From assembly GCA_948433295.1 (NCBI GenBank), contig CAOJDT010000013.1, positions 1 through 33,868 on the forward strand: a DNA stretch of 33,868 nt, given 5' to 3'. A program made the translations under genes and the position numbers. Positions 3,634 through 13,793 of the stretch are shown here, piece by piece. Numbering within the stretch: position 1 is the first letter of the stretch; each line of letters starts with the position of its first letter. The notes beneath the pieces are model-generated. The model did no database searches and was not told the DNA's origin. It worked only from the letters and a program-made list of their open reading frames with translations. This DNA comes from an uncultured bacterium (GTDB taxonomy: Bacteria; Cyanobacteriota; Vampirovibrionia; Gastranaerophilales; Gastranaerophilaceae).

Positions 3634-4755
3634 CTATCTGATTTGAACAGGCATAATCAAACAAACAAAGTCGTCTTCATTATCAGGTCTCAATACGGTT
3701 GCGGAAAGCGCTGTATTTAAACCTACGTTAACCTCGTCGCTTTCAATGTTTTTCAACGCTTCAAGTACGAATTTGTAGTTGAACGCAATTGCCAAATCTT
3801 CGCCGTCGTAATTGATAGCCAATTCTTCTTCTGATTTACCCGAATCAGGGGTATCACCCGTAAGTTTCAGGCTGTTTTGTGAAAAGTCAAATTTAACAAT
3901 ACTTGTTTTTTCGTTAACCATAATAGCAACACGTTCAAGCGCCGAAATAAGCTGAGAAACATTTACCTTAGCAACTTTCGGGCTTTCGGCAGGTATAAGC
4001 TGGTTATATTTCGGGAATTGACCTTCAAGAAGTCTCGAAATAGTTGTGGTTTTTTCTGATTTAATAATAATTTTGCTTCTTTCAGTGTAAATTTTTACGG
4101 AATCTTCTTCAATGAAAGAGGTCATTTTAATAAATTCATTCAAAGCTTTTGAAGGGATGATTAATTGCTGTGATTTATTTTCAGGGTTGTTAATTTTTTC
4201 ACGGACTCTGGCAAGTCTGTTACCGTCGGTTGACGCTATTTCCAAAACCTGACCTTGAATATCGCAAACAATACCTGATAAAAGGTTGCTTGATTCATAA
4301 CTTGCAGCAGCAAAACCTGCCTGACGAACTGCTTTTGTCAAAGGTTTTACTTCTATTTCGAAAGAATCTTCTTCTTTAGTGGTAAAGTTATAAACTTCCG
4401 GCGGAAATTCGTTTGCGGAAATACCGATGATATCAAATTTTGAATTTTGGCATGTAATATTAACTGTAGATGAATCATCCTGCATTTCAAAAGTAATCAA
4501 TTTGTCACCGAGCTTGGAAACTATCTCGTTGAGAGTCTTTGACGGAAGGGTAATTTTTCCGGGTTCTTCAACCTGAGCGTCGACTTGCGTAATCAAGGTC
4601 ATATCCAAATCGGTCGCTACAAGACGTAGTGTACTGTTATCAATAGTTTCGATTAAAATATTGAGTAAAACGGGCTGCAGTGCACGTGCACTTGTGGCTC
4701 TTTCTACTATTTTAATTCCGTTATATAAATCCTCTTTTTTAATTACAAATTTCAT
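3634..4755 (-). CDS. dnaN: DNA polymerase III sliding clamp (beta subunit)
   Basis: Ring-shaped processivity clamp that tethers DNA polymerase III to DNA. At 373 residues it is the normal length, with three repeats of the clamp fold. It begins MKFVIKKEDLYNGIKIVERA and ends VCLIMPVQIR, the conserved C-terminal strand. AAAGGAG precedes the ATG. The gene is transcribed away from the DnaA-box cluster at 4931-5096. An origin upstream of dnaN is common in bacteria, including cyanobacteria where dnaA is elsewhere; no dnaA is present here. Downstream, only about 85 bp separate its stop from the T0 toxin frame on the same strand. Confidence 0.97.
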   Translation of the reverse strand: MKFVIKKEDLYNGIKIVERATSARALQPVLLNILIETIDNSTLRLVATDLDMTLITQVDAQVEEPGKITLPSKTLNEIVSKLGDKLITFEMQDDSSTVNITCQNSKFDIIGISANEFPPEVYNFTTKEEDSFEIEVKPLTKAVRQAGFAAASYESSNLLSGIVCDIQGQVLEIASTDGNRLARVREKINNPENKSQQLIIPSKALNEFIKMTSFIEEDSVKIYTERSKIIIKSEKTTTISRLLEGQFPKYNQLIPAESPKVAKVNVSQLISALERVAIMVNEKTSIVKFDFSQNSLKLTGDTPDSGKSEEELAINYDGEDLAIAFNYKFVLEALKNIESDEVNVGLNTALSATVLRPDNEDDFVCLIMPVQIR

Positions 4756-4779: not shown

Positions 4780-5110
4780 TTATGACTAAATAATATAATA
4801 AATAAATCTCTGATAAAACAATATATAAACAAACTGTAACCATTCTGAGTTTTGAACACGAAAATCTTTACTATATATTATATTAATAAATATATATATA
4901 ATATAATAGTAATAATAAGAAGCGATTATTTGTAGAAAACCACCTGAAACTATTGGTACTATTGATTTTATTCATGTAGAAAACTTTGTTAATAAAATTA
5001 TTAATTTTCTACATGGGTTGTAGAAAACTTAAAATATCCTCCAAACGGTGTAGAAAACTTTTGAGTTTTCTACAGTATTCTACAAAGTTTTCTACAATAA
5101 ACAATGTCAA
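4780..5110. other. oriC: Candidate replication origin (oriC) next to dnaN
   Basis: Within 520 bp free of genes there are seven exact copies of the 9-mer TTTTCTACA/TGTAGAAAA (starting at 4931, 4975, 5005, 5019, 5049, 5066, 5088) and one near copy (TATTCTACA at 5076). It differs from the E. coli DnaA box TTATCCACA at two positions and from the cyanobacterial TTTTCCACA at one. Two boxes form a perfect inverted repeat at 5049-5074 with 11 bp arms. A very AT-rich run at about 4861-4920, made almost entirely of A and T, lies between the boxes and dnaN and could be the unwinding element. Position beside dnaN, clustered boxes and the AT-rich flank together indicate oriC. Confidence 0.82.
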
Positions 5111-12783: not shown

Positions 12784-12966
12784 ATGGACGACAAAAAAGA
12801 GAGAAATTTAACGCTGATTGAAGCTTCTCAAGAGGTAGAACTTGAGACTCAAAAAGTTGTAAAATCTCATCAAACCAATCCGATAATGAAAAAACTGGCG
12901 CAATTTCATCTTGAAAAAGCGTCTAAATTAAAGGTAAAAGATTTGTTTAAAAATCCGACCCCTTGA
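12784..12966 (+). CDS. Small charged protein of unknown function (60 aa)
   Basis: Not recognised. The protein is rich in Lys and Glu, predicted helical and soluble, without Cys or membrane segments (MDDKKERNLTLIEASQEVE ... LFKNPTP). TATAAT (12772-12777) ends six bases before the ATG, and AAAGAGG lies 12-18 bases upstream, so it could be leaderless or use a distant Shine-Dalgarno. Its TGA stop lies inside the -35 hexamer of antisense RNA T1, so the gene runs directly into the toxin-antitoxin array. Confidence 0.6.
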   Translation: MDDKKERNLTLIEASQEVELETQKVVKSHQTNPIMKKLAQFHLEKASKLKVKDLFKNPTP

Positions 12967-12990
12967 AATTTATAAATAATAGGTTATAAT
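12963..12990 (+). promoter_or_regulatory. Promoter of antisense RNA T1
   Basis: TTGAAA (12963-12968), 16 bp, TATAAT (12985-12990). It overlaps the stop codon of the 60-residue protein gene. Confidence 0.8.
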
Positions 12991-12996
12991 AAAATA

Positions 12997-13085
12997 AAGG
13001 GCGAGAGGATTGCCGTCCTCTCATTAAATGCCCGTTTAGTGTTTGAGAACTAGTATTATCAGTAAGATTAGTACTAGTTCTTCTT
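12997..13085 (+). ncRNA. Candidate antitoxin antisense RNA T1
   Basis: Predicted RNA of about 90 nt. The 5' hairpin has arms GAGAGGA (13003-13009) and TCCTCTC (13016-13022) with loop TTGCCG, enclosed by GGGC (12999-13002) / GCCC (13030-13033). The 3' stem is GAACTAGTA (13047-13055) / TACTAGTTC (13072-13080), followed by TTCTT; its T run is weaker than in T0 and T2. The 3' half is complementary to the peptide gene at 13036-13104. The 5' hairpin is exactly inverted relative to T2. Confidence 0.65.
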
Positions 13086-13104
13086 CTGTTATACAGAAGT
13101 TCAC
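13036..13104 (-). CDS. Candidate type I toxin peptide T1 (22 aa)
   Basis: A 22-codon GTG-start frame: MNFCITEEE followed by the hydrophobic core LVLILLIILVL and a KH tail. The Shine-Dalgarno AAAGGGGGTGG precedes the GTG. The leader folds into a hairpin directly before it: TTTCCAACG pairs with CGTTTGGAAA. Peptides T1, T2 and T3 share a short polar N-terminus, an E or K, an 11-12 residue Leu/Ile core and a final K, while the DNA differs. That argues for real translation. Predicted to insert in the membrane; toxicity is inferred, not shown. Confidence 0.65.
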   Translation of the reverse strand: MNFCITEEELVLILLIILVLKH

Positions 13105-13185
13105 TTTACCACCCCCTTTCCAAACGATTAATCCGGATTTGCAGTCTGTACCGTTGGAAAAAGTGCATGGCATGCCCTCGTAAAT

Positions 13186-13214
13186 ATTGTATCAATTAAC
13201 GTTTATAAAGTCAA
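13186..13214 (-). promoter_or_regulatory. Promoter of toxin T1 message
   Basis: On the minus strand, TTGACT (13209-13214), 17 bp, TACAAT (13186-13191). The start is near 13179, giving a leader of about 75 nt that opens with GAGGGCATGCC. Confidence 0.8.
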
Positions 13215-13249
13215 ATGTAACGGAAATATTATTAAATTAAAATAAAGGG

Positions 13250-13277
13250 TTGAAATTTATAGAAAATAGGTTATAAT
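13250..13277 (+). promoter_or_regulatory. Promoter of antisense RNA T2
   Basis: TTGAAA (13250-13255), 16 bp, TATAAT (13272-13277). Confidence 0.8.
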
Positions 13278-13283
13278 GTAGAT

Positions 13284-13377
13284 AAAGGGCGAGAGGACGG
13301 CAATCCTCTCATTAAACGCCCCTATTTGATGGAAATAAGCACTAAGATTATTAGCAATAATATGATTAGTGCTTTTT
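13284..13377 (+). ncRNA. Candidate antitoxin antisense RNA T2
   Basis: About 94 nt. The 5' hairpin is GAGAGGA (13291-13297) / TCCTCTC (13304-13310) with loop CGGCAA, inside the outer stem GGGCG (13287-13291) / CGCCC (13317-13321). The terminator is AGCACTAA (13338-13345) / TTAGTGCT (13366-13373) plus TTTTT. The terminator stem is the reverse complement of the toxin's hydrophobic-core codons. Confidence 0.7.
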
Positions 13378-13396
13378 CGCTAGCTGCGAAAACCAT
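13322..13396 (-). CDS. Candidate type I toxin peptide T2 (24 aa)
   Basis: ATG-start frame of 24 codons: MVFAASEKA, core LIILLLIILVLI, tail SIK. The Shine-Dalgarno AAAGGGGGTGATAAAG lies immediately upstream. A leader hairpin, TCGCGGA / TCCGCGA (13442-13448 and 13412-13418 on the plus strand), ends exactly where the Shine-Dalgarno begins. The start resembles holin-like type I toxins of the TxpA type only loosely, and the peptide is far shorter. It is better compared in size with Ibs peptides, but I cannot assign a family. Confidence 0.68.
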   Translation of the reverse strand: MVFAASEKALIILLLIILVLISIK

Positions 13397-13476
13397 CTTT
13401 ATCACCCCCTTTCGCGGACTGTCATTCTGCAGTAATGTTGTTCCGCGAGGAAATGAACGGGCATGCCCTCAAAAAC

Positions 13477-13505
13477 ATTGTATCAACTAACGTTTATAAA
13501 GTCAA
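13477..13505 (-). promoter_or_regulatory. Promoter of toxin T2 message
   Basis: On the minus strand, TTGACT (13500-13505), 17 bp, TACAAT (13477-13482). The predicted leader of about 74 nt opens with the palindrome GGGCATGCCC (13459-13468). Confidence 0.82.
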
Positions 13506-13540
13506 ATGTAACGGAAATATTATTAAATTAAAATGGAGGG

Positions 13541-13568
13541 TTGAAATTTGTAAAAAATGAGTTATAAT
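13541..13568 (+). promoter_or_regulatory. Promoter of antisense RNA T3
   Basis: TTGAAA (13541-13546), 16 bp, TATAAT (13563-13568). Confidence 0.8.
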
Positions 13569-13574
13569 GTAGAA

Positions 13575-13664
13575 AAGGGCGAGGCTGCGTCAACAGCCTC
13601 AATATATGCCCTCTGTGGTTATTTAAGGGCTAATATTATCAATAAGATAATTATTAGCTCTTTT
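13575..13664 (+). ncRNA. Candidate antitoxin antisense RNA T3
   Basis: About 90 nt. The 5' hairpin is GAGGCTG (13581-13587) / CAGCCTC (13594-13600) with loop CGTCAA, inside GGGC (13577-13580) / GCCC (13608-13611). The 3' stem (13627-13640 with 13646-13660, loop AATAA) is followed by TTTT. Relative to T2 both sides of the 5' stem have changed together and pairing is preserved. Confidence 0.68.
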
Positions 13665-13678
13665 GTATTTATAACCAT
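13619..13678 (-). CDS. Candidate type I toxin peptide T3 (19 aa)
   Basis: The shortest copy: MVINTKELIIILLIILALK. A consensus Shine-Dalgarno, GAGGAGGTGATAAA, precedes the ATG. The pattern is as in T1 and T2: a short polar start, E, a Leu/Ile-only core, and a terminal K. The leader carries the palindrome GGGCATGCCC (13746-13755) at its 5' end and a weaker stem before the Shine-Dalgarno. It is the copy nearest the XRE regulator gene, which lies upstream on the same strand. Confidence 0.65.
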   Translation of the reverse strand: MVINTKELIIILLIILALK

Positions 13679-13764
13679 TTTATCACCTCCTCTCCAGCGT
13701 CAATCGCGATTTTCAGTCTGTAGCGCAGAGTGAAGGTTTATGACAGGGCATGCCCTCTGATGTG

Positions 13765-13793
13765 ATTATATCAGATAAGATTTTTTAAGTCAA
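13765..13793 (-). promoter_or_regulatory. Promoter of toxin T3 message
   Basis: On the minus strand, TTGACT (13788-13793), 17 bp, TATAAT (13765-13770). It begins 18 bp after the stop of the XRE gene, so the toxin has its own promoter. Confidence 0.85.

Follow-up and report, generated by a model that had tools for sequence, protein, structure and literature searches.

Positions 4850–5110 of the window (the whole stretch of DNA analyzed, 33,868 nucleotides) very probably constitute a Gastranaerophilales replication origin in which the pairing between DnaA and its box has been re-specified. Few protein–DNA interfaces in bacteria are as conserved as the one between DnaA and its box. In the present case, the array of 9-mers next to dnaN differs from canonical boxes at base 6, and the DnaA encoded by the same genome has lost Asp433, a base-contact residue of the recognition helix in Escherichia coli. 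We assign the genome, which comes from an uncultured gut bacterium related to cyanobacteria, to Candidatus Gastranaerophilales because its dnaN shares 88% identity with the dnaN of Ca. Scatousia excrementigallinarum. The dnaN relatives matched in records L267 (titled Brachyspira) and L293 (titled Fusobacterium) are 85% and 71% identical, and judging by these sequences both records look like misnamed Gastranaerophilales bins; the relative in L303 (titled Bacilli) is only 31% identical, and that title may be right. The elements of the locus are as follows.

3634–4755, minus strand: dnaN (DNA polymerase III beta clamp), 373 aa, from a PF00712 match and the open reading frame; its start faces the origin
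4850–4858, plus strand: TTTTGAACA, the alternative box form of sister genera, by sequence match; presumably used in this genome as well
4872–4908, no strand: A/T-only run of 37 bp, the longest in the window; probable DNA unwinding element
4904–4918, minus strand: DnaA-trio array TTA-TTA-TTA-CTA-TTA (five trios), reading away from the box, by sequence
4919–4930, minus strand: 12-nt spacer AATAATCGCTTC separating box 4931–4939 from the trios, by sequence
4931–4939, minus strand: variant DnaA box TTTTCTACA, exact; adjoins the trios and is the box closest to dnaN
4975–4983, minus strand: variant DnaA box TTTTCTACA, exact
5005–5013, plus strand: variant DnaA box TTTTCTACA, exact
5019–5027, minus strand: variant DnaA box TTTTCTACA, exact
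5049–5057, minus strand: variant DnaA box TTTTCTACA, exact; left arm of the inverted pair 5049–5074
5066–5074, plus strand: variant DnaA box TTTTCTACA, exact; right arm of the inverted pair 5049–5074
5076–5084, plus strand: near copy TATTCTACA of TTTTCTACA
5088–5096, plus strand: variant DnaA box TTTTCTACA, exact

The sequence-only reading had described seven exact copies and one near copy of the 9-mer beside dnaN in both orientations, an inverted pair with 11-bp arms, a flanking A/T-only run, and a T at position 6 that departs from the canonical consensus, and each of these observations was borne out. The DnaA-trios and the TTTTGAACA site at 4850–4858 are additions to that reading. The copies lie at 4931–5096, upstream of dnaN, in an intergenic stretch of 25% GC; the inverted pair, TGTAGAAAACT-TTTG-AGTTTTCTACA, is perfect; and each of the eight copies, the near one included, has T at position 6, where canonical TTWTNCACA has C. 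Across the whole window, TTTTCTACA occurs 8 times compared to 0.83 expected, a number reached in none of 100 dinucleotide shuffles. The genome-wide count gave 85 copies in 1.96 Mb (93 for the reversed-pattern control), so the 9-mer is not enriched overall. Equal clustering elsewhere had been named beforehand as a refuter, and a search for a second cluster (at least three copies within 1 kb) found none anywhere in the genome besides the dnaN locus. Canonical TTWTCCACA is present in 62 copies genome-wide, all scattered singly and none in clusters. The further copies in the window, at 13258–13576, belong to a tandem repeat, where they occupy the promoter spacers, and we did not count them as boxes. 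This repeat, at 12963–13790, has three units of roughly 289 bp in tandem; the units form strong hairpins (z-scores of folding −4.2 to −5.6), each unit opening with a promoter-like TTGAAA-N17-TATAAT (at 12963, 13250, and 13541); the units had no Rfam match at the gathering score, and their sequence makes them candidates for a tandem small RNA. Clusters of TTTTCTACA also occur in families f2, f3, f4, and f6, as well as f28, f30, and f33, and clusters of TTTTGAACA occur in sister genera g6, g12, g18, g19, and g33.

We conclude that the locus is almost certainly the chromosomal oriC with a variant DnaA box, a reading on which the trios, the A/T-only run, the unique cluster, and the GC skew of a relative agree. 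The 9-mer cluster is dense and unique, a replication gene (dnaN) is adjacent, and an AT-rich element lies alongside. A basal unwinding system is defined by a DnaA box, a spacer of at most 16 bp, and at least three DnaA-trios, with a published spacer peak at 10–13 bp (PMC8287927); at the sequence level, the locus has a 12-nt spacer and five trios. The same order of box, spacer, and trios was found upstream of dnaN in 40 of 105 genomes of the order, compared to 1 of 2100 shuffled sequences. The check on GC skew that had been proposed was run in the relative G075, the window's own genome being in 131 contigs. On a 300-kb contig of G075, the cumulative skew reaches its minimum at 187,841 and rises afterwards, 1.6 kb from a box cluster (189,453–189,618) that adjoins dnaN, and the minimum thus coincides with the matching locus. 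Not every member of the order is arranged in this way: In genera g2, g24, and most of g8, the 2 kb upstream of dnaN contain no box cluster, indicating that in some members the origin is sited elsewhere or relies on different boxes. In the window's genome, dnaA is present in a single copy on a different contig from dnaN and the boxes, and the open reading frame that follows it resembles ruvA (named by eye). Between 3634 and 33612, the window brings together dnaN, an rpoD-like sigma factor gene, dnaG, two xerC/xerD-like recombinase genes, lepA, and dnaB, with dnaA elsewhere; most of these gene names were assigned by eye.

The sequence-only reading had further predicted a change in domain IV of DnaA, and this change is real. 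Domain IV of the genome's DnaA (L001) matches the Bac_DnaA_C profile (PF08299, E 1.5e-21), which places the protein as a variant inside the DnaA family rather than outside it. The position of E. coli D433 is occupied by K, while R399, R407, H434, T435, and T436 are retained; among the base contacts that characterize the family, R399, H434, and T435 are therefore present and D433 is absent. All 91 DnaAs of the genome's own family have K, N, R, or T at 433, six other families of the order have K, and other orders of the class have K, R, Q, T, or G. D433 is found in 0 of 152 DnaAs of the class, compared to 30 of 30 sampled elsewhere in the phylum. No other column of domain IV separates these 152 and 30 sequences without overlap (the next column has an overlap of 0.17). 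From this distribution, the change at 433 is class-wide and predates the genome by far. Some lineages depart further from the usual reading helix. In family f31 (L414–L418), DnaA has G433 and N434 (motif RGNS), R399 is replaced by N in most members, and several base-contact residues of the helix are lost. In genus g25 (L101, L102), clusters of TTTTCTGCA with an altered base 7 lie upstream of dnaN (3 and 4 copies), and the DnaA of these genomes has R433 and Q435.

To compare residue 433 with base 6, we took the 500-bp segment richest in TTWTNNACA sites from every genome in which that segment held at least four, and counted those sites. Base 6 was C in 118 of 128 sites of D433 genomes, T or A in 596 of 634 sites of K433 genomes (415 T, 181 A, 21 G, and 17 C), and A or C in 54 of 58 sites of N433 genomes; sites within clades are not independent, so that a chi-square value on these counts should not be taken as a true probability, and the link between residue and base is carried by only about two switches, D to K and K to N. 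The boxes adjacent to trios, which are the most clearly homologous sites compared, read TTWTCTACA inside the class and TTWTCCACA outside it. In the DnaA tree, all N433 rows group into a single clade with support of 100 that also contains one T433 row, which indicates that N433 marks a second switch, partly reversed. The D433 outgroup, four rows in all, does not fall on one side of a branch, leaving the deep branching unsure. Three other residues were considered as the cause and rejected: Y439 is common to photosynthetic cyanobacteria with CCA, H408 is found in outgroup f21, which uses CCA, and P423 is retained in f2–f4, which use CTA. We infer from these comparisons that residue 433 causes the change at base 6 and that the genome's own DnaA is altered in its binding specificity. 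Of relevance to the mode of contact, D433 has been assigned to box position 7 rather than 6 (PMC8235120); residue 433 may therefore not read base 6 directly, and contacts may be shared or rearranged.

Other accounts of the repeats and of their base 6 were weighed against this evidence. Operators of another DNA-binding protein, controlling dnaN or the divergent YeiH-like gene, could explain why the repeats occupy the gap between divergent genes and contain a perfect inverted pair; however, the trio array at canonical spacing, the skew minimum of G075 at the corresponding position, the canonical DnaA boxes beside trios at the matching place elsewhere in the phylum, and the lack of a second box cluster in the genome make this reading highly improbable. 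We give equally little credence to mutation pressure toward AT having moved base 6 without any involvement of DnaA. Although the genome is AT-rich and the intergenic stretch has the low GC content given above, outgroup f21 retains CCA cores at 23–30% GC (11 in one window), f28 has CTA cores with most of its loci at 46–49% GC, and the split at residue 433 between the class and the outside is complete. AT drift is rejected by the first two of these observations.

It is less far-fetched, but still unlikely, that the locus is an oriC at which K433 has simply stopped reading base 6, leaving T or A there as AT-rich background. Some K433 genera do show mixed CTA, GAA, ATA, and AAA cores, as such a loss would allow. 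Yet C makes up 2.7% of base 6 in K433 genomes, whereas the intergenic stretch, at 25% GC, would give roughly 12%; the CT pair alone accounts for 310 of the 634 K433 sites; and CTA persists in f28, a family of the class, at 46–49% GC.

In the re-specified origin that we favor, the helix-turn-helix in domain IV of DnaA would bind the TTTTCTACA boxes, and DnaA would extend from box 4931–4939 over the 12-nt spacer onto the trios at 4904–4918, and then open the A/T-only run. Within the class, D433 of the recognition helix would have been replaced, probably first by K, and the preference at box position 6 would have shifted from C to T (or A) alongside its loss; a later change from K to N in one sub-lineage would have been accompanied by a partial return of C6. 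A plausible chemistry is a hydrogen bond donated by cytosine N4 to the D433 carboxylate, while K433 may donate to thymine O4 or adenine N7. We lean toward a broader history in which D433 was lost class-wide and new codes then arose: K with CTA, GAA, or ATA, N with GCA and GAA, R plus Q435 with TTTTCTGCA, and the T433 and G433-N434 families besides. The natural series at 433 (D, K, N, and others), with one residue and one base shifting together class-wide, means that swaps of single residues can test directly how an essential initiator is re-specified. The variant box also lets origins be located in Gastranaerophilales and related uncultured bacteria; a TTWTNCACA search would overlook the origins of all of these, and the variant box would aid growth-rate estimates from read depth.

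Our literature search, with most subscription journals outside its coverage, found no report of TTTTCTACA as a DnaA box and none on the replication origin of Melainabacteria or Gastranaerophilales. Among the closest described counterparts, one is in the same phylum: Cyanobacterial oriC adjoins dnaN and has TTTTCCACA boxes (PMC4674748), identical to the 9-mer here except for base 6, which is C there and T here, and the sampled cyanobacteria have D at residue 433, where this genome has K. D433 is conserved in the DnaA of E. coli and Bacillus subtilis (PMC7561715, PMC5043019); the 9-mer cluster in two orientations and a domain IV helix-turn-helix with R399, H434, and T435 are shared with these species, but C6 belongs to their consensus (TTWTNCACA), in contrast to T6 here. 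The locus likewise resembles the basal unwinding system (PMC8287927) in its order, its 12-nt spacer length, and its trio sequence, here read from the DNA, and differs in that its box is the variant 9-mer. Lineage-wide change of a single box base, accompanied by altered residues in domain IV helix 5, has a parallel in Epsilonproteobacteria, whose DnaA boxes have a fixed T5 and whose DnaA is changed at residues 435, 438, and 439 (PMC5043019); base 5 is affected there, while base 6 and residue 433 are affected here. Finally, Thermotoga maritima DnaA, which uses a AAACCTACCACC box (PMC10225481) and has S aligned at 433, also combines the absence of D433 with an altered box. Most of its base-contact residues differ (PMC7561715) and its box is far from TTWTNCACA, whereas in Gastranaerophilales one base and one near-invariant residue have moved.
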